Shown here: piece after piece, positions 1 to 18,224 of the stretch | Layout of the letters: every line of letters begins with the position of its first letter | Numbering within the stretch: the stretch's first letter is position 1 | Origin: Clavelina lepadiformis | Taxonomy: Eukaryota > Chordata > Ascidiacea > Aplousobranchia > Clavelinidae | Reading direction: 5' to 3' | Length of the DNA stretch: 64,000 nt | Assembly: GCF_947623445.1 (NCBI RefSeq) | Contig: NC_135247.1 | Span: 2,792,501-2,856,500 of the forward strand | Translations under genes and position numbers: made by a program | Notes under the pieces: generated by a model | What the model was told of the DNA's origin: nothing | The model's input: only the letters and a program-made list of their open reading frames with translations | Databases searched by the model: none

Positions 1-349
1 GTATTTTACAATTGTTTAAGGCACCAAGAGCTTATGGATTTTACCTGATACATTGCTCAGACGCTTGGTTGTATTCACAAATAGTGTAAGCTGAATTTGT
101 TACGGAGTTCTTACCAAAAATATGCAACGAGCATTAAGTTTTTGTTTTATAAAAATGTAACCTGCGACAAATTCATAACATATATGCTGTTAGGCATTAT
201 CTCTTCACAAATTTTGCCTTTATTCAGTTACGACTAATGGAAATGTCATAGCTTATAATCTTCTGCCAATGACTGGTAACTGACAACCCAAGCAGGCCTG
301 TCTGCACTCCAACAACCTTCTTTACGGAACGTTGAGAACAGCTTGAAAA
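1..349. other. Upstream stretch, nothing recognised
   Basis: AT-rich sequence before the first duplicated block. I see no open reading frame with family resemblance, no RNA gene and no clear repeat. It may hold promoter or 5' UTR sequence of the host gene whose first coding exon starts at 625, but no TATA box or other element can be pointed to with confidence. Confidence 0.4.
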
Positions 350-1068
350 GCCGGCACGTTTCAAGCTTGGCATCTGGCGATTCCCTTGCAATTGCTCACT
401 TTATGTTTCTTTGAGAAGGTTTGGTATTTTGGGTATTTCGCAATAGCAATCACAATAAAAACAAGTCATGTTGCAGTGAACGGATGTTTTGAAGCTGCCT
501 CTGCGTTCTATACTTTGTATCTGGTATTTATCACATTGTTACGTCGGTCTACGTTGGAAGTTTTTAAGCTGATTCATTTTGATCTGATTCATTTTCATTC
601 ATTTCTTCATACCGATAGGCGGAAATGACCCAACTCGATTCTGGTTTTGATCGATTAAAAACAACCTACGAAACAAGCTATGGTGAGTTTTCCTTATGTT
701 ATGGCGTTCTGCAAATAACATGCATCCAGTTTGTGTGCAATTATGGATGTCGTATTGCTACTATTATACCTGTAAAGCCGTGATAATACTTACAGATTGT
801 ACCTGCGTACAGTAAACACCATTTTCATTAAGCTAACCCTGCCATTCTTGGCCAGTGCATTTAGATTCGAAACTGCACGAAGATATTTTCAGATACACTG
901 TGGTACTAATGCTCTCCCCTTTATTACTAAGCCTTTTACATTGTAATTCATACGGGTGAGGTGTTTTTTGAGAGGGTGTAATTCTGAAAATGTTTGGTGG
1001 CGGTTTCCATGGAAGAGTTTAATTTGCTCTCACATGCATTTTCCACCCTTGTATATGGCAATATTTAC
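350..1068. repeat. Tandem duplicate block, copy A (holds host exon 1)
   Basis: Starts with the string gccggcacgtt and is repeated nearly base for base at 1524-2214. Copy A carries the apparently functional first coding exon of the host gene (ATG at 625-627, donor GT at 683). Copy A is longer mainly because of a short extra stretch before the ATG. Since copy B keeps the donor but not the start codon, A is likely the functional copy. Confidence 0.85.
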
Positions 1069-4000
1069 CCTAACCAAACACGAGCGCATCATGGATTTGC
1101 ATTGCACGTAACTTCATAATTGCCACCACATACGTCATGATGAGCGGTAAATTTTGAATAAATTTGCCATTTTAAGACATGTTTTTGGCAATAATCGCTT
1201 AACCATGATATATTACTTTTATTTCATTTAGGCCAACTTGTTTTAGCTCCAGCTTGCCCTTCACTTTAAAAGGTGTGCTAGATTATGGCTGTGATGATAG
1301 TGGCGGTAACTACTAATCAGTGCTTCAAATTCTGTTATACAGTAACAAAAGCTTTTTTCAACGTGGATTTCGATTATCCCAACGCTGGAATAATACCACT
1401 TCCATAAAGCAATAAAATATTTTAACTAATCTTTTGTTATAACTTTTTCACTTGAATTCAGTACAGTACGCTAATGCCCAAACCAACCCAAACTCTCAAA
1501 GTTATAATAGAAATAGATTTACAGCCGGCACGTTGCAAGCTTGGCATCTGGCGATTCCCTAGCAATCGTTCACTTTATGTTTCTTTGAGAAGGTTTGGTA
1601 TTTTGGGTATTTCGCAATAGCAATCACAATAAAAACAAGTCATATTGCAGTGAACGGATGTTTTGAAGCTGCCTCTGCGTTCTATACTTAGTATCTGGTA
1701 TTTATCACATTGTTACGTCGGTCTACGTTGGAAGTTTTTAGGCTGATTCATTTCTTCATACCGATAGGCGGAAACGACCCAACTCTATTCTTATTTTGAT
1801 CGATTAAAACAACCTACGAAACAAGCTATGGTGAGTTTTCCTTATGTTATGGCGTTCTGCAAATAACATGCGTCCAGTTTGTGTGCAATAATGGATGTCG
1901 TATTGCTACTATTATACCTATAAAGCCGTGATAATACTTACAGATTGTACCTGCGTACAGTAAACACCATTTTCATTAAGCTAACCCTGCCATTCTTGGC
2001 CAGTGCATTTAGATTCGAAACTGCACGAAGATATTTTCAGATACACTGTGGAACTAATGCTCTCCCCTTTATTACTAAGCCTTTTACATTATAATTCACA
2101 CTGGTGGGGTGTTTTTTGAGAGGGTGTAATTCTGAAAATGTTTGGTGGCGGTTTCCACGGAAGAGTTTAATTTGCTCTCACATGCATTTTCCACCCTTGT
2201 ATATGACAATATTTATTATTTATATATTTACGTAAACTAATAACATATTTTAACTATTTTTTTTATAAATTTTTCACTTGATTTCTGTACAGTATGCTAA
2301 CGCCCAAATCAACCCAAACTCCCAAAGTTATAATGAAAATTGATTTACTAGTTACAGTGATTGTCCATTACAAAATATTTTATTACTTTTCGGAAGTGGT
2401 AGCATTCCAGTGTTGGGATAATCGAAATCCACGTTGAAAAAAGCTTTTGTTACTGTATAACAGAATTTGAAGCACTGATTAGTAGTTACCGCCATTGTCA
2501 TTATCGCCATTTTTAGCGACTCTTTTTAAAAAAGTTCAATTGGGCGAGGCGTTTGTTAGAACCAGAGGAGTTAGTGCTGCAAATTTTATTCCACGAATCA
2601 TCTCAACGGGCAACTTCTGCTTAAGATAAAAACGGATCCATTATCTTTAAACTACTTTAACGCAGTTTTTTATATATAGCTTTTACAAGTAGCACTCCCG
2701 AACGTATCGTGCAATAATAGAAATCGCGATCATCAATCACCTGCTTTTCCAGCTGTGGTAGTACCTTGAGTGCACTCTATCGTCTGTACCAGGCATGGGA
2801 AAAGTTCAGTCTTTTCAAGGAGCGTGTACAGCCTTTTAACCATTTGCTTGCTTTAAAAAAACCAAGCTTTGTTTTGCTTTGTTTAAGCTTACTTTTTAAG
2901 TTGCTGTCTGACTTCTGAAATACGGCCGTCGGTCAAGAAAAGCTTACCCACCCTTGTTCTATTCTTTGCCATTCGCGTTACACTAACTTCGTAACTTTGT
3001 GTCAGTGAATTTTTTATTCGAAGAGCCTTTTGGATATAGTACTAATTCTTTCCAGTAATACTACGCCTTGTACTTCGTCGTTGTGTTAAAGAAAGCAAGT
3101 TACTTCAATTTAGAGCGACTAGCTTGAGAGATACAAGCGGTACTCCTACAAAGTTTAGCCCCGTGAAATAATTGGAACAAAAACATTTCAAAGCGTAGCG
3201 CGTTGAAATTGTCACTTTGAATGAAAAAATGTTGCAGCAACCGTTTCAATTCTTTAGATTATTTCTGATATCCTGGGTGAGTGTAATGCAAAGTTAGTAA
3301 ATTAGGTGTTGTTCAAAAAAATAAAAACCATTTAAATGTAAACAATCGAAATGATATACTGGTACCGTGTACGCATAACCTTGTGTACCGGTAACAGCAA
3401 GTAGGCTACTGGACTGTACTCTAATCTAGTTGTACTAGGCTAGGCCTACAACGGGTAACCTTTTAAGACTTCAGCTAGCTTTGATGGAATAGGCTAGAAA
3501 TAGCAAATTACTAATTAATGTCTAAATAAAAAACAGGATATAGTTTGGAACTCTTTTGGTTAACTTTCTATTTTTCGACACGAGCTCGCTTCTTCAGGTG
3601 TGGAAGACACATTCCATTGTCTTCCAAGTTGTGTCATTATAATTATATTTCTGTTATTTACCGCGCTATTACATAACGTCATACTTGCCATAAGTTCAAT
3701 CTCAGTTCACGGTATAATTGCAAACTTATCGAAGAATAGCTGATTGACAATGAGTTTCGTTAACATGCTATCTACATTGCACTTTTGAACTTATTGCGCT
3801 ATGATAACCCCATATTTGTCATCCTATTTTGTAAACATGTTATTTACATTGCATTAGGAGCTTGCTGAATTCGAAATAACCCCTATGTGATTGACAACTT
3901 AATTGGTAAAAATGTTTATCTGCATGATTGACCTCGTATTAACAGCATTGTTAACATAAAAATACACAATGTTGATTGACATTTGTTTCCTTTTATTGAA

Positions 4001-7000
4001 AATTTCTAAATTGAAATTATCACCTGACCGTAAAACTTCGAGTCTAAAAGTCCAAATCAATTCCTGTCATTGATAAACGCATTGCGCCTCAAGTTGGAAT
4101 TATGTTTCTTTATTATCTCCTTCAGCGTATAAATGTATCGTTGCATGCTATGTTTTTATTAATTCAGAATTAGTATTAGTATTAGATTGGATGTAGTTTT
4201 GTCTTAGTTCTTCAGTATACAGTTAGAGATTTTTTTAAGTTCAATGAATGAGAAGATATAGATCGTAATAACTCTGTGAACAATTCTTTTAAATCAAAAT
4301 GAAATGTAGAGTGATGTGCTTTGATTGCTAATTAGTTCTTAAAATCCTTTTTATATAATAATAATATTATTGTAATTTTTTACTGTTTATTTAAAGTAAT
4401 AATGAAGAATATTAAAACCGATATTAACCAGACTCTCAGTGCTTAAAATTCATACAAACCATTCAACTGAAGTTTAGGAATTTCTAGACAGAATTCGCAA
4501 CCTTCTAATCGTTCTTAAGAGTCAGATTGCAATATATTAATTTTCCATAGTATGGTAGTTACTGTGTATAAAAACCAGTACCCGCCAGGTGTACTGTGAA
4601 ATCCCATCCTATGCGCTCCTTAAGCTTATGCTTGCGAAAGCTCGTGTCGAAAAATATAAAGTTAACTTTAAGAGTGCCAAATTATATCCTGTTTCTTATT
4701 TTACTTTAAAAATTGGTTAACACGATTTAGACAACATCTAATTAATGTTTGTAATTCCTTTAATCTTAAGTTAACGCATAGTACCACACATCCATACTAG
4801 CACGCAAACAGAAAGCCTTTTATTAGATTTTTAGCCTAGGTCTAACATCAGTCAGCATCCACCAGGTAATGTTTGTCTACAGATAATTTTAGAGAGGGTA
4901 AAAATCATACTTTTCTTTCATTTAACCAGTCCAAGTCTTTCGAAAAACGAATTACTTAGTATTTCTTGTTTAAAGAGGTGTACGGTTGGGTAATTTAACC
5001 AGCTGTAAGGCACCAGCTCTAGCCTACAGACATTAGCTTTACTTGTTTTACCACCAATTTGTAGTGGGGTTTTAATTTAAAGAAATTGCACCAAAATGAT
5101 GATTTGTCTGATTTTTTTCCATTGTATGTAGGTATTGTGTTTACCTAAATGTGTTAAAAGATATGTTTAGGAATAAATGTAGTTTATATCCTTGTATTTG
5201 GTTTCCATATCTTCATGTTCTATAACATCCAATGCTGTGAATGTGAAATGTTTTATTATTTTGCAGAAATTTTAGAGCACAGAAAAATAACTCGCGAAAT
5301 AGAAAAGTTTCAACATGGATGCAGTGGACTTGATCATGATGGAGGTAATATGTTTGGCAAGAGCAGTGCCTAAAACGTAATTTATAACTGACAGTATGAC
5401 TACAATATAGCTAAGATAACACTAGTTCTGTGTATCAGTATCTGTAGGGCTTGTACTGGTTGCTATTGCTGATTATTAGGGCCATTTTTATATGACCTTA
5501 AAAAATCAATAATATGACTTTATTTTTTGGAAAATATGACTTTATATGACTTTATGTGAAAATCGTGTACTTTTACATGCGAACAACGTCACTCACGGAA
5601 CTAAAGAGTAAAACATACGCAAAATTACACTAATACACATCCATTTTTATTTTAAACCACTGTTGTAGTACAGTTTCATGTAGTGTGGAATGTTAGAGTC
5701 TTTGAAGTTACGATTTGAACGTAAAAATGACTTTAGTAAGGAAAATGAGCGCTCCACAGACGCTGATGTGGGTTGACACTTCTGCAGTTTTGCATAAAGC
5801 GCTGGTGAAATGTCTTGTCTTTGTAGCTCCATAATTTGTTTCACATCGTTTTTGTCCAATCGCTTCTTAATGTAATTTTTGAGCTCAAGCTAGCGGATCT
5901 TTTCCGAAATCAAGGGCATTTAGATCAGCATGGGCCTCTTTGATGGTGTACGTACAACTTTCCATTTTGAGTATTAAGTTTGAAATATTGTTGTAGTGGA
6001 GGCATATTTCTGTTAACTGACTAGTCAACTTTGGATCGTTGACTGTAACCGTCTGTGACTGTAAGTGTTATGTAGGCTAATCCTACAGTTTGCCTTCGTT
6101 CAATCAGAAATTGCCTTACTTTCTTAGTGCTTAATTGCTTCACCGCTTAAATTGGTACTTTTTATTTAAAGTATACAACGATATGACTTTATAACTCAAA
6201 AATATGACTATATAACTTAAAAAGCTGATTTATGACCTAACCAGGAAAATATGACTTTATATGACTTCATAACTTTCTTAATATACCTCATAGGGATGCG
6301 GTTTTTGCGTTAAAATTGATTTCACGACTTACTGATGCATAGAAAAAAATATGACTTTAATGACTTTAAATGGCCTTACTGATTATTATAGCTAACAAAA
6401 TCAATATATTTGCTAATATATAATGACAGGGTTGTGTGATTTTTAAGCCAATATTTTAACCTTATACCGGTTTTATTTTGTGTGTTGGTCGCCACAGTAA
6501 GACATAAAATGTGTTTTTGACATTTGCTTGTAACCAACTTGTAGCCTAGCCTACACCAGGTTCAAGTCACAGATAGGCCCACAGTTATTTAAATGTGAGA
6601 CAAGTGAAAACGAAAGATATATTTGTTTAGAATATGAGGCACTGGAATTGCTTCGTGTTTGTGAGCAAATTCGTCAAATTAATGACGAGCAGCTCACCAC
6701 GAATGCAGCGGAACTCTTCCCAGAAGAGCTGAGTTTATTCCATATCAAGTTGACAGAATCACAAACTGACTCGCTCCTGTTTAATCTCACTAAAGTTGAG
6801 AAACGCATCAAGCGGCTTCTGAACAAATGCTTTTCTAAACCAGAAGATGTCGGCCGATTATTTGAGGCAATTCAAGCAATGCCAGGAAAGGTTTGTTTAT
6901 TTATTTTAATTTCTACTTTTTCGTTCGTCTTCAAATTTGTTTACGAACTCGATGTGTCGTAACAATGCGCCTTGGTTTTCCATGTGATGTCATAACAATT

Positions 7001-10000
7001 TTTCCCGCTTTTAAGCAAACATGGTTTGCTGAGATTCGGAATATTTTGTTATAATTTATTTCAACGGGGCGTAATTTCCCCGCGCAAGTTTTACTGTTTA
7101 AATCTCTGATAGATCTGGAATGCGCAGTAAACCTGGCCGCTTAAAATTCGTTCGTTTTAATGAGAAAAATGGCAAAATATTATCGGTTCAGTTTAGGCTA
7201 AAATCAGTAGCATCTGACCAAGGTTTGGCCAGAAGCAAATTTCAAATTTTTACAAAAGTACAAATATTTTTGCGACTTCAACATCAATTTTTATTTCTGC
7301 AACGAATACTCGATTGTGGTTTAAGTTGGTCGCTTAAAATTCCTTCTATTTTTCTCAAAATCCAAGAATTTGTGTTGGTCCACTAGGTTACTGTAGGCCT
7401 AAGCTACCATCATGCTAGTTAGTTGTTAATTAGTTAACGGTAACCAGTTAACTTGTATGAGCTAAATATTAGGGTATTAGTCTTTGTTGTAACATCATGT
7501 TGTAGTTTAATTTTACAAACATTTTAACTCTAGATCTGTGGCGGCTTGGCTCGCTTTTGTAAAATCCTTACGTCTTTCGTAGAAATGTGTTTTCCAGAAC
7601 AATTGGAGTTTTTAAACTTTCAGTCCCGCCACATCATTCTTATGAAAGAGTTTTCCAGCTAGTAAATGGAGTTTAAAACTTGCCTTTTCAGAACACTGCA
7701 AACTACCGTTGGTATATTTGAAAACTTGCTACGAATAACTTCGTGTGAAAGCTCCTTATTTAGTACGTTACCAGGTCGCTTCCAAGTAACTGTTTCCAAC
7801 TTAACCAAATTTAATTTGCATTGCAAACACACCGATTTTCACGTTCACACGCTTTGAAATGTTCATGCCTTTTTTGTCATATATTTCCGCCACATCGCAG
7901 CACGTTTTATAAGCTTGAACTTTTGTGTGAGACTCCCCCTGAGCCTCAGAACCTCAGTCACAGACGCGAAGTTATAGACATATGTAATACCGTACTACTG
8001 TAGTTGTGGTGATTGAATCAGTAGACATCGTGTAAACAGTCACATGACTTGTGTTCTCGGTTATTTGTAATATTGAGAAAGTGTACAGCACCTACAATAA
8101 AAGCCTTTTCTGGCAAACGGTATTTGTTATAATATAATACGAACGTTCGGCTATCAGAAAGGTTAGAGAATTCTAACCGCACGCAACAATAGAGTCAGAT
8201 ACTAATGTAGTAGGTTAACTAAGTCAATAACGTAACGTAAGCTAAGACCGATAAACTCTGCATCTGTATCTGCATCTGTCGGCATCAACCTCTACATCCT
8301 AAAACGACCCCAACCTCTACATTTCTGATGACCCCGACGTTCTAGTGACCACCGACATTTCTGATGACCCCGACGTTCTAGTGACCACCGACATTTCTGG
8401 TGACAACCCGACGTTCTACTGACAACCCGACGCTTCGACGTTCTAATAAACCACCGACGTTCTAGTGATCACTGACGATCTTGTGTCAAAAACGACGCGT
8501 TTCAATTCTCACACTCTCGCAATTCGCACAACCGTTCTTCACTGGTAAGTGGATTTTTCACTTTTTATACAACTACTTGCAACCATAGCTTGTAAATGCA
8601 TGCTCATCGGCTTGTACCTTATTAAATTAGCTTAAGCTATTCTTATTGTGCTGCATTGTGCTGCAGTTTGAAATAAAAGTTTCTTGTTGTAAAGTATTTT
8701 TTGGTTCAATTGTGAACAATTTTTGCGGTGTGCCGCCTAAAACATTTTCTATCGGTTTTGATAAATGTCACAACCTGTGCCGACACAACGAAAAGTTACT
8801 TCGGTGCCTGGCAAAGCTAAGACAGAATACCACATGAGCACACGATCAACCGACCGTTCCAACGAGTCAATTAATAATACAACTATGTCGAACGAAAACG
8901 GGGAGGGATCTGCAAATACTCCCGATAATGGCATTGCTGGTCCGTCTGGTCTGGGTACTAGTAACCAATTACCAACAAACGCGCAACCACAGAACAATAC
9001 TTTACGAAACGATTTGTTTTCACACGTTAAACTTCCTACCTTTTGGAAATTTAATCCCGAAGCGTGGATTTCTCACCTTGAACATAAATTTTCTCTTTAT
9101 CAAATCACTTCTCAAACTAATCGTTACTTGTTGGCGGTAGAGGCAATTCCTGCGAAAGACCTCGCGCTCCTTCGGTTACCTTCGGCGTCAGCACAGAACT
9201 GCTACGACATATTGATCAATGAAATCTTGAGAAACTTTGATAAACGTGAGGACCATTTAGATTTTTTGTTGGCGGACCTGACGCTGCACGATCAGTCCCC
9301 GAAACATTTAATGCGCGAATTAATGAGCGCAGTAGGTCAAGAGAATCTTACTCCGCCAGTCGTCAAACTAATTCGTGCTAAATTCCTTAAAGCGTTACCA
9401 CCAGACGTCGCAATTGCGTTAGCCAGCGTGGAACATCACGATCTCCAGAACCTTGCAAGCAGAGCCCACGAAATCTTGCTGCTTAAACAACCAAAAACTT
9501 CTTCGCACAACCTTTCCCTTGCCATCACTGATACGGATGACATTGACTACCCAATGCAACCGCAAATACAGCAAATTCAATTGTCTAAACCACCGCGCTA
9601 TACACGATCTAACGCTAACAACGAATCTAAGAGTTCCGGGCAAAGAAATACGAATTTCACAAATCAAAATACGCCAAACCAACGCAATTCATTTAACTCA
9701 GCATGGCAACAACGATCACCACGCACAAACAATGGACAGTTTCACAAATCATACAGCAACAACGGGTTTAATCGAGATAATCGCCGACAAAATGGTTCTT
9801 CTTTTGCAAACCAACGCAAATATAATTTTTTACATTCATCCCCCACATTTCAGAAACCAGACTACCAACGTAGCAATTACCCTTGCGCGTCTGATGCTTC
9901 TAATGGCTTATGTTATTACCACGCCCGCTTCGGTAGGGATGCGCGCCGCTGTCACCCAAGTTGTAGCATGCGGGAGAACCAATCCCGCCCAACAAAAAAC

Positions 10001-13000
10001 GCGTGGCGATCGACGCAACATTAACCCCGTCAGTCCCGTCGATCGCATCATCAATAAAAAGAGGCTGCCTCTTGTTAACTGTATATGATCACGCCAATAG
10101 TATTCACTTTTATGTAGATAGCGCGGCAGCAACTTCTCTTTTGTCCGCTAGTTTAGCTGACGTATCAAACCGCAAACCGCAAACACCGCTTTTCGCTGCT
10201 AACAGCACGCCAATTACTACGTATGGCACTACACAACTTAATGTTTCCCTTCATCCTCGTTTTTCTTATCCCTTTGAATTTGTGCTTGCGGACACACCTT
10301 TTTGCATATTGGGGCTGGATTTCCTCACTGAATACAACTTTGTTTTGGATCTTAAAGCCAAGCATCTGATAGATGTACCGAACCAACAGCAATATACGTT
10401 AGAGCCTGTTGAAAGTGATCCTGTTCGCATATCCATTCTCAGCCAGATAGATCCTGTTGCAGACCTTTTACATCAATTTCCAGACTTGCAAAAACCCATG
10501 TCAGCTGTTAAACCAGTGAAGCATTCCATCGTTCACCACATCCATACCACAGGTTCTCCTGTACGTGCACGTCCACGTCGATATAGCCCAGAAACAATGC
10601 AGATCTTGAAGAAAGAAATTGACAGCTTGCTGGAGCGAGAAATTATCCGATACAGTGATTCTCCTTATGGAAGTCCGGCCTTGCTCGTTCCTAAAGGCTC
10701 TTCTGGCAATAAATATCGTCTTGTCGTTGATTATAAATTAGTCAACAAACAAACAATCGACAGCTGTTACCCTCTTCCGTTCTTACATAGTTTTTCCGAG
10801 GTTTTGTATGGTAAAACTGTCTTCTCTAAATGCGATCTCCAAAACGCCTTTCATCAAATAAAAGTGGCTCCAGAAGATGTCCATAAAACGGCGTTTGTTT
10901 GCCCCCTAGGACAATTTGAATACACAAGACTCCCATTCGGTTTATCGGGCGCCCCACGGACCTTTTCCAGACTAATAGGGGAAGTAGTACGTCCCCTTCA
11001 GCACCTTGGAATCTTTGCTTACCTCGATGATATCATCATTGGAAGTAGTAACCTATCAGAACATCTTGAACACCTTAAGTTGCTTTTTCAACGACTTGAG
11101 GAATTTGGCTTAACGCTCAATTTAGACAAAAGTGAATTCAACCGCGAGTCTCTTGACTACCTTGGCCATCACATAAATTCTGAGGGTATACGACCAACTC
11201 AAGAAAAAGTGCAGGCCATTCTTGATTACCCACAGCCACAAACCTGCAAACAGCTGAAACGTTACTTGGGAATTTATTGCTATTATTTTCGCTTTCTGAA
11301 GCATTGTTCCACAACCTTACAACCGCTTTACAAGCTAGTTCCGAACAGTCGCAGCAAACGCGCGGCCCCTTTAACATGGAATGTCGAAGCCGAATGCGCC
11401 TTCGCCAGCAGCAAACAAGCTATTGCAAATGCTAGCACTTTAGCGTTTCCGAAACTCCATGCTCCAACTTATCTAACAGTTGACGCTTCGTTGACCGGTA
11501 TTGGAGCGACATTAGAGCAATTGCAAGGAAATCAACTTGTTCCTTTGGCCTTCTTTTCAAGACAGCTGAACGCTACTCAACGTAAATACAGTTGCTTTGA
11601 CCGAGAGCTGTTGGCCGCTTACAAGTCAATACGTCATTTCCGCTACTTCTTGACAGGCCGACAATTCACTTTGCGTACAGACCATCTCCCTCTGGTTTCA
11701 AGTCTCAGTAAGCTCTCCGAACATTACTCTCCAAGACAGTTCCGGCAATTGTTGTTTGTTTCAGAATATACAACAACCATTGAGCACATCAAAGGCTCTG
11801 CCAATGTTGTGGCGGACCTCTTGTCAAGGTCTCAACCTTCGGCACCCAACATTAATACTCTTTCGGACGTTCCGCCTCCTTTAGAGTATGAGAAAATAGC
11901 ACAAGCTCAAGCCAATGATCCTGCTATTCAAAGACTACGCACCGCAACAACATCACTCAAACTCCAGGACTGCAAGCTGCCCAATAAGGACCTTACCATC
12001 CTTTGTGACGTGTCCACTGACACAGAGCGTGTTCTAGTTCCTTCCTCCTTCCAACGTCAAGTATTCCTGCACTTACATAATTTATCGCATCCTGGAAAAA
12101 AAGCCACAATTAAGCTCATCAAGGAAAGATTTATATGGATAGGGATGTGTAAACAAATCGCTACCTGGGTTCAACAATGCCCAAACTGCCAGGAAGGAAA
12201 AATTTTCCGCCACACTAAAACCGCACCGGGGAAATTTAAAATTCCCTACGGACGATTTTCTGATGTTGCAATTGACTTGATTGGACCACTACCAACCTCC
12301 CATGGTTACAAATACATCCTTACATGTATTGACCGTTATACGCGTTTCGTTCAAGCCATACCAATCCCTGATGCCACCACGGAAACCGTCGCCGCTTACT
12401 TTGTAAATCACTGGTGTTCCTTGGTCGGTGTTCCAATCATCCTCACAAGTGATCGTGGACCATGTTTCATAAGTTCCGCTTGGGCAGAAATTATGCGCTC
12501 GCTTGGTATTCAACACAATCTGACTACAGCTTACCACCCCACTTCCAATGGAATTACAGAACGCGCAAATGCAGAGATCAAGCGCGCCATCAAGTGTTCA
12601 GACGAACCTGAACGTTGGTTTCACAAATTAGGTTTTATTGTCTTGGCTCTGCGTAATCGCTATCTCCAGGATTTGAAATGTACACCTGCTGAGTTAGCTT
12701 TTGGACACACCTTACGGCTCCCAGGTGGTTTCTTTTCTGATTCCAAGCTTGCCTCTGCAGTTCCTACATCCAGCTACCTCGGTGCCTACCGAGACTTCAT
12801 CAACGACCTTCAGTTTACTCCAACGACCGCTCATACAAAATTCATGCAGTCCTACGTGCATCCGGATTTGAAACATTGTGACCGCGTTTATGTTAGATGC
12901 GATCATGTCAAACGTGCGTTAGAACGCCCTTATGTTGGTCCTTTTCCAGTATTGGAAAGATACGAAAAATATTTTGTAATATCCCGTCATGGCAAACCGG

Positions 13001-16000
13001 ATCGCGTCTCACTCGACCGTCTCAAACCTAGCTATACAATTGATATTGATGCTCCCTCACCATCATCCTCCTCGCATCAACAAAATTTTTCTTTGCAGAC
13101 TCGACACCCTGCTCCTCAGTCAGTCTCCGCTACTTCAGCGAAACAGCAAACGACACCACATACTGTCACTGCTCCTGCTTCTATAAAACCGCCTGAAGTT
13201 GTAAAGACTTCTCGGACTGGTCGCAAAATCATTCCACCGAAACGGTTCTCTGACTAAACAACACAACATGTTCGTTTGTCTGCTGCTTACATGTTTCTTT
13301 TTGTTCACATCCGCCGCTCAGACGAATCTTCATCCGGATACACAGAAATTTCTGTTATGTCAGCGTTCGCATTCTCTCGGGTTATATACCTTTGATGACG
13401 ACATACATTGTCAAACGCAGACACCCTTCTCCATACACAACTGCTCTGCTACCGTGTTTGCTCCAGATCTGCATCTCCAGAAGATTCCTGCAACAGTTTG
13501 CACTTCACAGATTACTTCCTGGAGCACTACTTACTTCTTTTTTGGGAGTTATCAAAAATCGGCCAACACCTTTGACGCACACCCACCGTACAACCCAGAA
13601 TGTTCGTCGTGGAATAAAACCAACGTTTCATCACATGGACCGCTGATCCTGTCTAATCCTGCGGCGTACTCAACACGCAATGCAGTCCATTATAAGTTTG
13701 TCTGGCCGACTTCAGCTTCTGGAACAGTAACAAACGACTTCTTGTTTCACACTACAATTTACTACGATTACGTCACGGACACAATGACGTCGTCTCTTGG
13801 ATCTCTTGCATCGTGCTCAATCGGGCGTGGATACTGCTTAACGGGCAATCGTATGTTTATATGGCGAGTACCTTCGCATATCAACTGCCCACCAACCAAG
13901 CCTCTCGGGACTCACAAGATGCTCCTCCATTACAACTCTACGTCCTTATATAGAGTTTCCTTACCTGATCTCGGGATCTCGGTACATCACTGGAGGAAAT
14001 GCTCCTCTCGTGCGAAAAACTGCTATGGCAAACATATTCACTGCGACAACAACAACTTTATCTTTCGCTACCAACAATGTACAGAGCTCGACAGACTCGC
14101 TCTTTTTCGTCCTAACCGGCTAAGGCGTGCCCCTTTTCGAACGCCATACTCTCAATTCGAGCGACTTTTTGCAACCTTCGACACACAACAGGACGACCTT
14201 ATTTCAGAAGTTCTCACTACCTTCAACGAAGAGAACAAGTTCCTACATTGCCAACTCACGAAGCTAATTGGCACACTCTACAAAGCAATTGGGAAGATCT
14301 TCCCTACTGAGATACTCACTACTACTCTTGGACATCAAACCATGGGTTCCAGCCTTGGAGATTTTATGTCCAGAGCAGCATGTCACTCTATCAACGGTAC
14401 CGTCTTACCGTCACTTGCGTACCGAAACGCATTCAGCCAACGTCCTCTCATCAAATATCGCGATCAAAACGGCCACAGTCAATACGGCCAACTCATTTCA
14501 GACAACATTGTCCTACCGGGAGTGCACCTGCTGGAATCGTATCGACCAGCAAGAAGTTTTGTCTTCCGAGTTCTGGGACACACTGTCCTGTATCACAACT
14601 ATACTTTATCGCACGAACATGTGCAGGTGCATCAACTCAACTTACCTTTGTCGCCTATACACGTCAACTACAAGGCACCCGACTACGAGAAAATTCTCAA
14701 CGAGCTACCTGACTCTGACTCGTTTACTGATCTACAATCGCTGCTCAGCTCTATGTCTGAAGCCAACCTTCTCAAGGAACAAATGCGACATGTCATGACA
14801 AGCCTTACTACTACTACTGATGAAACTATGATCAACGGATCCTACGTCGCAGACACATTCGCACACGCCGCGAAACAAACGCTACTCCTTGCTCTGTCGC
14901 AGATTACGAATCCATTTCTCTCAGCCCTTATATTCATCCTGCAACTCCTTGCCATGATGTGGGCCCTCTTCCATACCATCGGGTTTATCCGATCGTCTCC
15001 GCACCATTTGCAGTATGCCAGATCCCTTGTATCCCGTGTCCGCGCTTGGCGCCACCAACAGCAGGCGCCGGTTGCAAGACCTCAACTACCACAACCGCTG
15101 CCCTTGCCTCGGCGTTCTCGTGATGAACCGTCTCCGTCCGGATCTGCTGATGACGCACCGCCCGCTTCATCTTCTCGTGATAATTTCGCGAGCACCCACA
15201 CACTTTAAGTTTCACTATGTGTATCACCTTGCTTCAATACCGATAATGTCCTTTGCATGTACAATTTTGCCGTTTTCCCTTGTCGCCGCTTTCGATTTTG
15301 TAACCGTTTTGCTTCGTTGCATGCTTAGTAGCTTATTCTTGTGCTAGTATCGTTTTCACTTTTCCCGCCTTATTGCATGCTAACTATTCCTGTGCATGAG
15401 TTTAGCTGTTTCAACCCACCTCAATAGGGGGAGGTGCAGTTGCAAAAAATTTACCCTCTACCCCTTTAGTTTCTCCACAGACTTTGCTGCCACTACCATT
15501 GCTGCCAAAACCACTTCAGTATGTCGACGGTATCTGATTCCTCCGCTGACGTTCAAATTGACGAAATCACTTCAGTTACTGAGATGATTCCCGACTCACC
15601 CGATTCACCGGTTCAACAATCATCTCCCGCGCCGTATGTGCCGATCGTCAGACCTGGGAAGCAAGGCGCTCCTGCCCCCATGCCCCAGAGCGCTGATCTA
15701 GCAGATATACAAGCTACGGTGTTACAACCAGTACATAGACTATTTCGGCCGTTTAAAACAACCGTTACAATGCCGACCCTTGCGGTTCCTGCGCCGCCAA
15801 CCACTTCGGCTGAGGATCTACTACTTTGGTTCCAGCAGCTGGATGAACTGTTCCAGCTGGTTCCTGATTTTGAGTTTATGAGCAAAATCCTTACCATGGT
15901 AGCAGCCACACCTGCTTTCCACATGGCCCCCTTGATGAAGTATATATCCAACGGGGTTACGGACAAAACCCGGGAATACGAACAGTTCAAACAATTTTTG

Positions 16001-17301
16001 CATGCCCGGTTAATCTTGGAGATACCCTCCAACATGTAGCTATATTACCATCAGTTATTTTAAGCATATGTTACAGTTCATTCATTTGTATATAACTTCA
16101 GTTTTTTGTTTGTGCTTGCTCGCCATTGCCACCTTCAGTACGTTACATGTTAATTGTCATCTTTTTTTCCTTCCGTAGCGGGGGAGGAATGTGGCGGCTT
16201 GGCTCGCTTTTGTAAAATCCTTACGTCTTTCGTAGAAATGTGTTTTCCAGAACAATTGGAGTTTTTAAACTTTCAGTCCCGCCACATCATTCTTATGAAA
16301 GAGTTTTCCAGCTAGTAAATGGAGTTTAAAACTTGCCTTTTCAGAACACTGCAAACTACCGTTGGTATATTTGAAAACTTGCTACGAATAACTTCGTGTG
16401 AAAGCTCCTTATTTAGTACGTTACCAGGTCGCTTCCAAGTAACTGTTTCCAACTTAACCAAATTTAATTTGCATTGCAAACACACCGATTTTCACGTTCA
16501 CACGCTTTGAAATGTTCATGCCTTTTTTGTCATATATTTCCGCCACATCGCAGCACGTTTTATAAGCTTGAACTTTTGTGTGAGACTCCCCCTGAGCCTC
16601 AGAACCTCAGTCACAGACGCGAAGTTATAGACATATGTAATACCGTACTACTGTAGTTGTGGTGATTGAATCAGTAGACATCGTGTAAACAGTCACATGA
16701 CTTGTGTTCTCGGTTATTTGTAATATTGAGAAAGTGTACAGCACCTACAATAAAAGCCTTTTCTGGCAAACGGTATTTGTTATAATATAATACGAACGTT
16801 CGGCTATCAGAAAGGTTAGAGAATTCTAACCGCACGCAACAATAGAGTCAGATACTAATGTAGTAGGTTAACTAAGTCAATAACGTAACGTAAGCTAAGA
16901 CCGATAAACTCTGCATCTGTATCTGCATCTGTCGGCATCAACCTCTACATCCTAAAACGACCCCAACCTCTACAGATCGAAATGCTTAATATCCGTGGCA
17001 ACATAATCCCGAAGATACCTTCAAAATTCTTCAACAAAATCGAGGTTGGACTGTTTATGTGGAAATGCTTCCCTGATCATGACGCAATAGATGGGAAGTG
17101 CGATGCGAACCAATCAGATATCGCTGAAATTCAACGAGTCCTTGACCAATTGGATGACTCGGTATTATTTATGTCTTGTTATGTTTGTGTGAAGTTGAAC
17201 ATTGCAGAGGAATTTAATCTGAAACTTCTAATTTATAGGAGTTGATGACTATTCTTCGTTGGTGCGATGTTGAATTTGTCGCGCTCCGTTCGCGAAAGTA
17301 A
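625..17301 (+). CDS. Spliced host gene, 214 aa, unrecognised
   Basis: Five exons can be joined: 625-682, 5267-5344, 6631-6890, 16976-17161 and 17239-17301 (TAA). Each is bounded by AG and GT, and the phases 1, 1, 0, 0 all match, for 645 nt in total: 214 codons plus stop. The protein starts MTQLDSGF and looks mostly helical. Exon 3 is rich in charged residues (CEQIRQINDEQL, KVEKRIKRLL) and exon 4 includes NIRGNIIPKIP. I do not recognise the family. Exon 1 lies in a tandem duplicate whose second copy is decayed. Intron 2 holds a hAT element. A 9.4-kb retroelement has inserted 3 nt into exon 4 and seems to have re-created its splice acceptor. No polyadenylation signal was identified. The phase agreement argues strongly for a real gene; expression is unknown. 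Confidence 0.72.
1294..1425. repeat. Inverted repeat arm, partner at 2371-2502
   Basis: The stretch containing ggcggtaactactaatcag reappears as its reverse complement at 2371-2502, including the same sequence around a cttccataaagcaataaa-like end. The two arms flank duplicate copy B. A shorter direct repeat (about 1444-1527 against 2262-2350, shared core aacccaaact) lies just inside the arms. The arrangement suggests that copy B arrived as part of a rearrangement. Confidence 0.75.
1524..2214. repeat. Tandem duplicate block, copy B (decayed exon 1)
   Basis: Near-copy of 350-1068 placed in intron 1 of the host gene. The codon matching the start ATG is ACG at 1774-1776, and a run of five A is four A just downstream, so the duplicated exon can neither start nor keep frame. 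The donor-like tatggtgagttt is retained at about 1827-1838. This is a dead exon copy. Confidence 0.85.
2371..2502. repeat. Inverted repeat arm, partner at 1294-1425
   Basis: Reverse complement of 1294-1425, with only scattered differences. It closes the block that contains duplicate copy B. Confidence 0.75.
2503..3523. other. Intron 1 sequence, nothing recognised
   Basis: About 1 kb inside intron 1 of the host gene. I see no family-level coding similarity, no clear repeat arm and no RNA gene. Confidence 0.4.
3524..4703. mobile_element. Non-autonomous element with about 68-bp inverted ends
   Basis: Bases 3524-3592 and 4634-4703 are imperfect inverted repeats of each other, sharing cores such as aacaggatata, gttaac and cgacacgagct. 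The interior is AT-rich and has no transposase-like ORF. This is the structure of a MITE or a non-autonomous DNA transposon. A weaker match between flanking sequence near 3511 and 4740 suggests the ends may extend further out, so the exact termini and target duplication are uncertain. A related arm occurs at about 20,570-20,630. Confidence 0.65.
5477..6378 (-). mobile_element. hAT DNA transposon remnant, 902 bp
   Basis: Ends are tagggccattt on the left and aaatggcctta on the right, a terminal inverted repeat with one mismatch. It is flanked by a perfect 8-bp duplication, ctgattat, at 5469-5476 and 6379-6386; 8 bp is the hAT-family hallmark. Many copies of an atgacttta-type motif lie near both ends, the usual pattern of subterminal transposase-binding repeats. 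The interior encodes only the C-terminal end of a transposase, on the minus strand. The element sits in intron 2 of the host gene. It is non-autonomous and probably old, although its target duplication is still perfect. Confidence 0.9.
5647..5859 (-). pseudogene. hAT transposase C-terminal fragment
   Basis: About 70 residues with the motif TSASVERSFSLLK followed by a basic stretch. This is characteristic of the C-terminal dimerisation region (hATC) of hAT transposases, where a conserved serine, glutamate-arginine and phenylalanine pattern is typical. The upstream catalytic part (RNase H fold with DDE residues) is absent, so the fragment cannot act as a transposase. It lies inside the element bounded by 5477 and 6378, in the orientation expected for its coding strand. 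Confidence 0.8.
7537..8321 (+). repeat. 5' LTR, 785 bp
   Basis: Begins TGTGGCGG and ends CTCTACA, and matches 16190-16974 in length and, as far as read, in every base. A TATAAG at 7908-7913 could serve the promoter. AATAAA at 8096-8101 is a good polyadenylation signal, placing R roughly at 7935-8115. Short ORFs inside the LTR appear identically in both copies and are not counted as genes. Confidence 0.95.
8326..8414 (+). promoter_or_regulatory. Primer binding site and its tandem copies
   Basis: Four bases after the LTR comes tgatgaccccgacgt (8326-8340). It matches the complement of a tRNA-Trp 3' end (TGGTGACCCCGACGT from general knowledge) with one mismatch. The same string returns at 8362-8376, and a variant with TGGTGACAACCCGACGT at 8398-8414, a 36-nt period. 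The first copy is best placed for priming, while the third begins with the ideal TGG. tRNA-Trp priming is known for CsRn1- and Kabuki-like elements. Confidence 0.65.
8541..8552 (+). promoter_or_regulatory. Leader splice donor
   Basis: ACTG followed by GTAAGT, a near-perfect donor with GT at 8545-8546, lies in the untranslated leader about 215 nt before the gag start. A leader donor is what retrovirus-like elements use to make subgenomic RNAs for env and accessory genes. Confidence 0.55.
8765..10024 (+). CDS. gag: Gag polyprotein, 419 aa
   Basis: Structural protein that would assemble particles and bind the element's RNA in the cytoplasm. The N-terminal about 80 residues are polar and rich in Ser, Thr and Asn. 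A capsid-like helical region follows (residues about 85-240), with a tryptophan in AWISHLEHKF and a cluster of leucines after it. Next is a long Asn/Gln/Arg-rich stretch. The C-terminus carries a C-x2-H-x9-C-x3-C finger at residues 383-400 (YYHARFG within it), the form typical of CsRn1-like Gag rather than the retroviral CCHC knuckle. The ATG at 8765 is not the first AUG after the leader donor. The ORF ends in TAA at 10022-10024, overlapping pol, which is reached by frameshifting at 9994-10000. Confidence 0.9.
   Translation: MSQPVPTQRKVTSVPGKAKTEYHMSTRSTDRSNESINNTTMSNENGEGSANTPDNGIAGPSGLGTSNQLPTNAQPQNNTLRNDLFSHVKLPTFWKFNPEAWISHLEHKFSLYQITSQTNRYLLAVEAIPAKDLALLRLPSASAQNCYDILINEILRNFDKREDHLDFLLADLTLHDQSPKHLMRELMSAVGQENLTPPVVKLIRAKFLKALPPDVAIALASVEHHDLQNLASRAHEILLLKQPKTSSHNLSLAITDTDDIDYPMQPQIQQIQLSKPPRYTRSNANNESKSSGQRNTNFTNQNTPNQRNSFNSAWQQRSPRTNNGQFHKSYSNNGFNRDNRRQNGSSFANQRKYNFLHSSPTFQKPDYQRSNYPCASDASNGLCYYHARFGRDARRCHPSCSMRENQSRPTKNAWRSTQH
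9994..10046 (+). promoter_or_regulatory. -1 ribosomal frameshift signal between gag and pol
   Basis: The heptamer A AAA AAC occupies 9994-10000 in the correct gag phase for simultaneous slippage. After a 5-nt spacer, 10006-10015 (gcgatcgacg) pairs perfectly with 10037-10046 (cgtcgatcgc): ten uninterrupted pairs with a 21-nt loop. A loop segment ttaac at 10021-10025 could also pair with gttaa at about 10075-10079 to form a pseudoknot. A -1 shift here enters the pol frame directly. This fits classical retroviral gag-pro signals in heptamer, spacer and stem. Confidence 0.9.
10000..13257 (+). CDS. pol: Pol polyprotein: protease, RT, RNase H, integrase
   Basis: Reached by a -1 shift at 9994-10000; no start codon is needed, and the open frame from 10003 spans 1084 codons. 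Domains, numbered from 10003: aspartic protease with DSAA at 39-42 and ILGLDFL at 102-108; reverse transcriptase with LPFG at 310-313 and YLDD at 340-343; RNase H with D494, E536, D560 and D605; integrase with a zinc-binding HHCC region (H690-C729) and catalytic D758, D817 and E853, the usual 35-residue spacing. A GPF-type module follows (residues about 978-1010), then a Pro/Ser-rich tail. It copies the RNA into DNA and integrates it. One oddity is that the protease has DSA where D-[ST]-G is normal. The order RT-RNase H-integrase places it in Ty3/gypsy. The stop is TAA at 13255-13257. Confidence 0.95.
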   Translation, partial: RVAIDATLTPSVPSIASSIKRGCLLLTVYDHANSIHFYVDSAAATSLLSASLADVSNRKPQTPLFAANSTPITTYGTTQLNVSLHPRFSYPFEFVLADTPFCILGLDFLTEYNFVLDLKAKHLIDVPNQQQYTLEPVESDPVRISILSQIDPVADLLHQFPDLQKPMSAVKPVKHSIVHHIHTTGSPVRARPRRYSPETMQILKKEIDSLLEREIIRYSDSPYGSPALLVPKGSSGNKYRLVVDYKLVNKQTIDSCYPLPFLHSFSEVLYGKTVFSKCDLQNAFHQIKVAPEDVHKTAFVCPLGQFEYTRLPFGLSGAPRTFSRLIGEVVRPLQHLGIFAYLDDIIIGSSNLSEHLEHLKLLFQRLEEFGLTLNLDKSEFNRESLDYLGHHINSEGIRPTQEKVQAILDYPQPQTCKQLKRYLGIYCYYFRFLKHCSTTLQPLYKLVPNSRSKRAAPLTWNVEAECAFASSKQAIANASTLAFPKLHAPTYLTVDASLTGIGATLEQLQGNQLVPLAFFSRQLNATQRKYSCFDRELLAAYKSIRHFRYFLTGRQFTLRTDHLPLVSSLSKLSEHYSPRQFRQLLFVSEYTTTIEHIKGSANVVADLLSRSQPSAPNINTLSDVPPPLEYEKIAQAQANDPAIQRLRTATTSLKLQDCKLPNKDLTILCDVSTDTERVLVPSSFQRQVFLHLHNLSHPGKKATIKLIKERFIWIGMCKQIATWVQQCPNCQEGKIFRHTKTAPGKFKIPYGRFSDVAIDLIGPLPTSHGYKYILTCIDRYTRFVQAIPIPDATTETVAAYFVNHWCSLVGVPIILTSDRGPCFISSAWAEIMRSLGIQHNLTTAYHPTSNGITERANAEIKRAIKCSDEPERWFHKLGFIVLALRNRYLQDLKCTPAELAFGHTLRLPGGFFSDSKLASAVPTSSYLGAYRDFINDLQFTPTTAHTKFMQSYVHPDLKHCDRVYVRCDHVKRALERPYVGPFPVLERYEKYFVISRHGKPDRVSLDRLKPSYTIDIDAPSPSSSSHQQNFSLQTRHPAPQSVSATSAKQQTTPHTVTAPASIKPPEVVKTSRTGRKIIPPKRFSD
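13268..15208 (+). CDS. env: Env-like membrane glycoprotein, 646 aa
   Basis: Starts 10 nt after the pol stop, in another frame. Residues 1-18 form a hydrophobic signal peptide. The ectodomain has many cysteines and seven N-x-S/T sites (for example at 58, 116, 223, 376, 444 and 523). RLRR at 284-287 is a furin-type cleavage site dividing the protein into surface-like and transmembrane-like parts. A membrane segment at about 549-573 is followed by a basic, Pro/Ser-rich cytoplasmic tail of about 70 residues. This is the layout of retrovirus-like envelope proteins; I could not assign it to a named fusogen class. Likely expressed from spliced RNA: acceptor-like sites at about 13,119 and 13,139 (ctcctcag, cttcag) leave its ATG as the first AUG downstream. 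The frame is intact. Confidence 0.85.
   Translation: MFVCLLLTCFFLFTSAAQTNLHPDTQKFLLCQRSHSLGLYTFDDDIHCQTQTPFSIHNCSATVFAPDLHLQKIPATVCTSQITSWSTTYFFFGSYQKSANTFDAHPPYNPECSSWNKTNVSSHGPLILSNPAAYSTRNAVHYKFVWPTSASGTVTNDFLFHTTIYYDYVTDTMTSSLGSLASCSIGRGYCLTGNRMFIWRVPSHINCPPTKPLGTHKMLLHYNSTSLYRVSLPDLGISVHHWRKCSSRAKNCYGKHIHCDNNNFIFRYQQCTELDRLALFRPNRLRRAPFRTPYSQFERLFATFDTQQDDLISEVLTTFNEENKFLHCQLTKLIGTLYKAIGKIFPTEILTTTLGHQTMGSSLGDFMSRAACHSINGTVLPSLAYRNAFSQRPLIKYRDQNGHSQYGQLISDNIVLPGVHLLESYRPARSFVFRVLGHTVLYHNYTLSHEHVQVHQLNLPLSPIHVNYKAPDYEKILNELPDSDSFTDLQSLLSSMSEANLLKEQMRHVMTSLTTTTDETMINGSYVADTFAHAAKQTLLLALSQITNPFLSALIFILQLLAMMWALFHTIGFIRSSPHHLQYARSLVSRVRAWRHQQQAPVARPQLPQPLPLPRRSRDEPSPSGSADDAPPASSSRDNFASTHTL
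15209..15520 (+). promoter_or_regulatory. Env to ORF4 interval: purine tract and splice acceptor
   Basis: Contains AGGGGGAGG at 15426-15434, resembling the 3' polypurine tract core GGGGGAGG at 16180-16187. It is followed by a long pyrimidine stretch ending in ctccacag at 15480, a strong acceptor candidate. The first AUG after that acceptor is the ORF4 start at 15521. Together these suggest a spliced RNA for ORF4 and possibly a second, internal polypurine tract. Confidence 0.5.
15521..16039 (+). CDS. Accessory ORF4, Gag capsid-like, 172 aa
   Basis: An intact ORF between env and the 3' LTR. Residues 1-75 are acidic, then Pro/Ser-rich. Residues about 85-165 align by eye without gaps to the capsid N-terminal part of this element's own Gag: LWFQQLDELFQL against AWISHLEHKFSL, then KILTMVAATPAFHMAPL against RYLLAVEAIPAKDLALL, and later YEQFKQFLHARL against YDILINEILRNF. 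Similarity is at the level of pattern, not near identity, so it is not a fresh duplication. It lacks the finger and the C-terminal half of Gag. Possible roles are an accessory assembly factor, a regulator of Gag assembly, or an interfering capsid fragment; all are inference. The start is the first ATG after a strong acceptor at 15480. I know of no named counterpart. Confidence 0.75.
   Translation: MSTVSDSSADVQIDEITSVTEMIPDSPDSPVQQSSPAPYVPIVRPGKQGAPAPMPQSADLADIQATVLQPVHRLFRPFKTTVTMPTLAVPAPPTTSAEDLLLWFQQLDELFQLVPDFEFMSKILTMVAATPAFHMAPLMKYISNGVTDKTREYEQFKQFLHARLILEIPSNM
16178..16189 (+). promoter_or_regulatory. 3' polypurine tract
   Basis: The string gcgggggaggaa lies directly before the TG of the 3' LTR at 16190. 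It is the expected plus-strand primer site for reverse transcription. Confidence 0.9.
16190..16974 (+). repeat. 3' LTR, 785 bp
   Basis: Matches the 5' LTR in length and apparently in every base; AATAAA is at 16749-16754. Its last bases, ccaacctctaca, followed by the G of the GATC duplication, read as a pyrimidine-rich splice acceptor ending in CAG at 16973-16975. Host exon 4 resumes at 16976. Confidence 0.95.
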
Positions 17302-17633: not shown

Positions 17634-17812
17634 GGCGATCAGTTTGATCGCCGGCCAATTTGTTGCCGATCAGTTGATGAAGACCAATTGTCGCCGGTTA
17701 ATTTGATCGCCGGCCAATTTGTTGCCGGGTTAATTTGATCGCCGGCCAATTTGTTGCCGGTCAGTTAATCACGACCAATTGTCGCCGGTTAATTTGTTCA
17801 TGGTCAATTGAC
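17634..17812. repeat. Short tandem/palindromic repeat block
   Basis: Repeating modules built from gatcgccggccaatttgttg and gaccaattgtcgccggt in about three imperfect copies. Cores such as cgccggccaatttgttgccgg are themselves partly palindromic. There are no unique spacers and no coding content. It is probably a piece of a dispersed repeat family. Confidence 0.75.
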
Positions 17813-18224
17813 GTGATCCCGTTGGCGCCACGTCATGCTAGTTACTATTTCCTTTGATTTCTTTGTTTTACCGATTTTTTTACATTCCTTAGTTAATTAA
17901 CGTTGATTGCTTTGCTTTATATTCTGTTCACCTTCTGTAAATCCATTCAGTCGTTTATTTGTTTCTTAAATTCAATACAATTGTATTCCCGCGGACACGG
18001 TAACTTCTCAACTTACGAACGTTCAGTTTCGTATTTAGGTCTACCCATTACGATATTAACCGCGAGCCATTAACCATAGAGTAGTAAACGTCCAATCATC
18101 GAGATGAAGCACATTCATAATAATGCTTATTGCTGCATGATAATTAATTAATTACTCCCGTCCTGGAATGACCTTACGGGTAAGAGTTAGACAATGAGAA
18201 CAATATTGCGAGAGCGATGCGACA

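Follow-up and report, generated by a model that had tools for sequence, protein, structure and literature searches.

In the armyworm Spodoptera frugiperda, the LTR retrotransposon Yaoer is inserted in SfCHS2 with a target duplication, GAAGG, that spans a splice donor. The first T of the LTR restores the GT, the original donor survives downstream and both transcripts occur; about 80% of transcripts were mutant in resistant larvae, and wild-type transcripts were 12-fold lower in the strain (PMC11249258). In Arabidopsis, the element Evelknievel lies in exon 13 of CMT1, and splice variant SV2 removes it via an AG composed of the A of the LTR and the first duplicated G (PMC6238269). SV2 made up 25% of the cloned variants that splice Evelknievel out, full-length CMT1 mRNA was very low, and the spliced product disappeared when silencing was lost, which indicates that silencing aids the splicing of Evelknievel (PMC6238269). 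New ONSEN insertions in Arabidopsis genes have been described as mostly removed by splicing, as introns. Dingle elements of the annelid Dimorphilus combine a Ty3/Gypsy pol with a herpesvirus glycoprotein B-like envelope (PMC7854359).

The insertion described here lies at a splice acceptor. Among openly licensed papers on LTR insertions and splicing no LTR case at an acceptor border was found, and one may exist in print. Rebuilding of the acceptor follows known LTR chemistry, and close precedents exist. The window, a 64,000-nucleotide stretch of the Clavelina lepadiformis genome (C8:2792501-2856500), was analyzed, and searches covered 209 Mb in 95 contigs. Public data for the species include poly(A) RNA-seq from another individual, kaClaLepa9 (ERR10908613), and an alternate haplotype assembly (GCA_947623165.1).

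Borders of the insertion and the interrupted gene

The host gene, the duplicated target and the two LTRs were placed as follows.

625..682, + strand: candidate first coding exon, 58 nt, donor ATG/GTGAGT; brings the protein to 214 aa
5267..5344, + strand: exon 2, bordered by TTGCAG and GTAAT; aligns to five of six C9 paralogs tested
6631..6890, + strand: exon 3, donor AAAG/GTTTGT at 6891; GTTTG identical in nine aligned paralogs
6891..7533, + strand: ancestral intron 3; its last bases, CTCTAG, carry the old acceptor (7532-7533), which 9 of 11 paralog places share
7533..7536, + strand: GATC duplication, copy 1 (last intron base and exon bases 1-3)
7537..8321, + strand: 5' LTR, 785 bp, TG...CA; candidate poly(A) signal AATAAA at 8096
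16190..16974, + strand: 3' LTR, 785 bp, without mismatch to the 5' LTR; the terminal A supplies one half of the new acceptor; candidate poly(A) signal AATAAA at 16749
16975..16978, + strand: GATC duplication, copy 2; supplies the G of the new acceptor AG (16974-16975)
16976..17161, + strand: exon 4, starting after the rebuilt acceptor in its pre-insertion phase
17239..17301, + strand: exon 5 with stop TAA; stop absent in two of nine paralogs, and one of nine shifts frame ahead of it

Read to the base, a Ty3/Gypsy-type element occupied positions 7537-16974 (+), in the sense direction, and straddled the end of host intron 3. Host sequence ending in TTTTAACTCTAGATC extended to 7536, the element began at 7537 with TGTGGCGG and ended at 16974 with CCCCAACCTCTACA, and host sequence resumed at 16975 with GATCGAAATG. 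These borders and both GATC copies agreed to the base with an earlier note on this DNA, which had described an insertion 3 nt into host exon 4. The old acceptor AG at 7532-7533 was intact just before the 5' LTR, which it now faces from 9.4 kb upstream of the new acceptor. The new AG consisted of A16974, the last base of the LTR, and G16975, a duplicated host base; it read CTCTACAG/ATC at the former exon edge and left the codon phase unchanged. The splice dinucleotide was split between LTR end and duplication, as in insertions of the Evelknievel and Yaoer type. The acceptor was rebuilt automatically because the LTR terminates in CA and the last G of the intron opens the duplication, a starting point that forces the AG. 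From the sequence, any CA-ended LTR would rebuild an AG in such a register, by no special property of this element.

Close paralogs of the window gene (6631-17301) formed a large cluster on C9 at 12.6-14.4 Mb (L063-L069 and L120-L129). In a multiple alignment, 9 of 11 paralog places spanned the empty site, all reading CTCTAG/ATC with the same donor start, which matches the aactctag-type original site proposed in the earlier note; the remaining two, L065 and L068, diverged ahead of the site. Intron 3 and its flanks were about 90% identical to the C9 paralogs. Intron 3 was already present in the nine aligned paralogs, and the insertion lengthened it and made no new intron position of the introner kind. 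A search with positions 7100-7536, in which the best 40 of 87 candidates were scored, returned 41 matches; 29 of these were C9 places aligned to the last base, 7536, and the best paralog reached 95%. An empty second allele was not found among these matches: only the window itself exceeded 95%, and the others were C9 paralogs and weaker C4 matches. Assembly error is an unlikely origin of the insertion, as the identical LTRs, the clean duplication and the many similar copies argue against it.

The frame of exons 2 to 5 stayed open to the TAA, and the 214-aa protein put forward earlier was reproduced from the five exons, the first of them a candidate. That first exon was one of two candidates (ATG, 58 nt in all, then GT) in positions 1-5200 that were open into exon 2. 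A model with exon 3 starting at 6585 and the protein at 5315 (194 aa) was rejected, as its frame was not kept by the paralogs; exon 4 borders were identical in both models. Exons 3 and 4 of the interrupted gene copy each lacked a codon that all nine aligned paralogs have, and this copy may therefore be little used. Neither of two protein models had a domain match above the Pfam cut-off, a PDB search with one paralog-like sequence returned no match, and Rfam at gathering scores returned nothing across the whole 64-kb window.

Exons varied more than introns within the paralog cluster. Mean identity among the nine paralogs was 91.0% for exon 4, 83.6% for exon 5 and 98.3% for intron 4. The variable codons lay in a fixed frame and appeared LRR-like by eye, without a Pfam match. 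Judged from these sequences, the cluster may be a fast-evolving recognition family.

Several other features were observed around the gene. About 900 bp of intron 2 (5477-6378) were absent from paralogs L065 and L067/L124; this stretch holds a minus-strand frame (5647-5889) that we take to resemble the end of a hAT transposase. Downstream of the gene, a repetitive GATCGCCGGCCAATTTGTTGCCG-type stretch (17649-17826) was mostly missing in paralogs L063, L064, L067 and L069. Positions ~280-1220 and 1560-2230 formed a repeated stretch in which the same translated frames return at an offset of about 1.15 kb (776-946 and 1924-2094, for example), and the candidate first exon (625-682) sits in the first copy.

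The element family and its target sites

Three open frames were found between the LTRs.

8765..10024, + strand: gag-like open frame (DUF7041; Pfam 4.4e-8, above cut-off)
10003..13257, + strand: pol open frame with reverse transcriptase, RNase H, integrase zinc binding and integrase core (RVT_1 5.5e-32, rve 6.8e-16)
13268..15208, + strand: env-like open frame, part of which is similar to herpesvirus glycoprotein B (PF00606 4.1e-9; bit score 36.7, short of the curated cut-off, 43)

The TG...CA LTRs, the short duplication and the order reverse transcriptase, RNase H, integrase within one pol frame fit a Ty3/Gypsy element. No mismatches separated the two 785-bp LTRs, which places the 95% upper bound of divergence at 0.4% and the age below 1 million years at three assumed rates. 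All candidates scored (40 of 179) matched the final 125 bp of the LTR at 100% identity, and 128 LTR ends were counted genome-wide at no more than one mismatch, compared with 14 for the reversed pattern. The numerous near-identical copies indicate that the family was recently active. Exact 4-bp duplications flanked 12 of 13 solo LTRs of the family, and for 24 of 32 5' flanks the same 4-mer occurred in a listed neighbor, with one of these pairings misplaced (L083 is the true mate). Close to the LTR end (16938-16974), CAACCTCTACA was present twice at a spacing of 26 bp.

Target flanks were surveyed from 100 listed of the 128 LTR ends. The 3' flank began with G in 21 of 60 distinct flanks, and the 5' flank split a host AG in the same register in 6 of 46, the window's site being included in both counts. 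A weak palindromic preference was seen: the second base ahead of the duplication was T in 35 of 45 flanks, and the second base beyond it was A in 46 of 60. This preference, together with the four 5' flanks that read TAG in the same register, would be expected if the integrase targeted splice acceptors and the rebuilt site were an adaptation sparing the host. The window site was favored only 1.7-fold over the mean target weight, with 9.9% of 54,546 window positions scoring as well or better, so no acceptor targeting was seen; the 6 of 46 AG-splitting flanks were likewise near the expectation from base frequencies. Such an adaptation is very improbable. Another copy of the element, L085 (C6:9092458-9093323), had the acceptor-like 5' flank ATTTTTCAGT, the last CAGT of which is a possible duplication.

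The rare part of the event is hitting one exact register at a real acceptor. On an assumed 60,000-160,000 introns in the genome, 46-100 insertions would give 0.007-0.04 landings in this register at a real acceptor. With many LTR families to draw on, and allowing for selection and for the choice of what was reported, such a landing is unremarkable.

Splice signals and the predicted fate of transcripts

The score of the new acceptor lay among those of real acceptors from the same genome. Acceptors were scored with a model of 27 junctions, placed by eye in chaperonin exon rows (46 rows) of this genome, excluding first exons, single-exon copies, a row that contained stops and some of the weak rows. 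The new acceptor scored -0.61 and the old one -1.01, and with each real site left out in turn, 9 and 7 of the 27, respectively, scored lower, on a model that is small and leans to plausible sites. The earlier description of the new site as pyrimidine-rich held in part. Between -20 and -4 it had 10 pyrimidines in 17 positions, equal to the old site, but only 2 of the 17 were T, below all 27 reference acceptors (4 to 13). No further AG occurred in the 76 nt upstream of the new exon edge. Of 2672 host AGs in the window, 15.4% equalled or exceeded the new site in score, as did 56 of the 407 sense AGs within the element, and other acceptors could therefore win.

The old acceptor had been predicted to splice into the LTR and reach a stop, and its intact AG does lead into 42 residues of LTR reading before a stop codon. 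A competition between two acceptors had also been proposed. Both AGs are present, but the contest is wider than the earlier note allowed: the AATAAA at 8096 in the 5' LTR went unmentioned there, and together with the upstream position of the old acceptor it may end transcripts.

The best explanation of the locus as a whole, which we hold to be reasonably probable, is a weakened allele. A recently active Ty3/Gypsy-type element with an env-like frame integrated in sense, and its 4-bp duplication begins at the final G of intron 3. As the sequence shows, the duplicated G turned the CA-ended LTR into CAG and so restored an acceptor at the former position, with the phase kept. Transcription from the host promoter would reach the old acceptor and the AATAAA long before the new acceptor, and for this reason most transcripts are expected to be a truncated fusion of 132 host and 42 LTR residues. 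A minority would run to the end, splice 6890 to 16976 and encode the unchanged 214-aa protein. The gene might thus still be readable through the insertion, though probably poorly, and the allele would be a weakened rather than a dead copy of a gene with many paralogs. Partial rescue of this kind is favored by the mirror-image carriers of Yaoer, which have both transcripts with 80% mutant, and by the use of the LTR A plus duplicated G acceptor of Evelknievel; the T-poor new tract, the many rival AGs and the codon losses in this gene copy speak against it.

The same signals could be read as a null allele, in which every transcript takes the old acceptor or ends in the LTR and the rebuilt AG goes unused. 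An old acceptor that is both intact and upstream would fit this outcome, as would the AATAAA at 8096, the T-poor tract and the many alternative AGs within a 10-kb intron. Complete loss is nevertheless somewhat unlikely, given that the new site scored no worse than the old one and that a moth and a plant insertion built in the same way are described as partly spliced. At the other extreme, the insertion would be nearly neutral if the rebuilt acceptor were the main one and the protein near normal, for example through silencing of the element. The AG-free 76 nt before the new site and the equal standing of both acceptors on the model suit such an outcome, and the loss of spliced Evelknievel product on loss of silencing suggests that silencing helps. 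With an AATAAA in a sense LTR, a surviving upstream acceptor and 80% mutant transcripts in Yaoer carriers, near neutrality is quite unlikely. Because many close paralogs exist, the insertion probably has little effect as far as the gene itself is concerned.

Meaning of the locus and comparison with described systems

Should carriers produce the normal junction, 9.4 kb of sense insertion at an acceptor would cause only partial loss of function, at a locus that annotation pipelines would score as a broken gene. The locus would then be the counterpart of the published donor-side case and point to a simple rule for LTR insertions tolerated at exon borders. Because TG...CA lacks one G of GT...AG at both ends, exon-intron borders are places where an insertion repairs the site it breaks. 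There are two repairing registers, the first G of the donor and the last G of the acceptor. TG...CA insertions in these registers might survive selection more often than their neighbors and leave a countable excess where elements are active; we regard this as doubtful. If it holds, this locus is an acceptor-side example and Yaoer a donor-side one.

Like Yaoer, the element described here has its duplication across an exon-intron border, a terminal LTR base and a duplicated G restore the splice dinucleotide, and the original site survives. The Yaoer case is on the donor side, with the G followed by the T of the LTR start, a 5-bp duplication and a 6.4-kb element, whereas the present case is on the acceptor side with a duplication of 4 bp. 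Normal and mutant transcripts of the Yaoer allele coexist by RT-PCR and Iso-Seq. As in Evelknievel, the acceptor AG is formed by the terminal A of the LTR and the first G of the duplication, and the frame is kept. Evelknievel recruited a new GC donor because it inserted inside an exon, whereas here the old donor and the old exon edge are kept.

The locus resembles introners that take splice sites from duplications (PMC9860276) in that the site is partly supplied by the duplication and mRNA length would be unchanged. Introners are mostly short, DNA-transposon-like families that spread as introns, whereas here one long retroelement lengthens an existing intron. Like Dingle, the element has a Ty3/Gypsy-type pol, and its env-like frame may likewise resemble glycoprotein B (here with a PF00606 score below its cut-off); the host is another animal, and the comparison is one of gene content.
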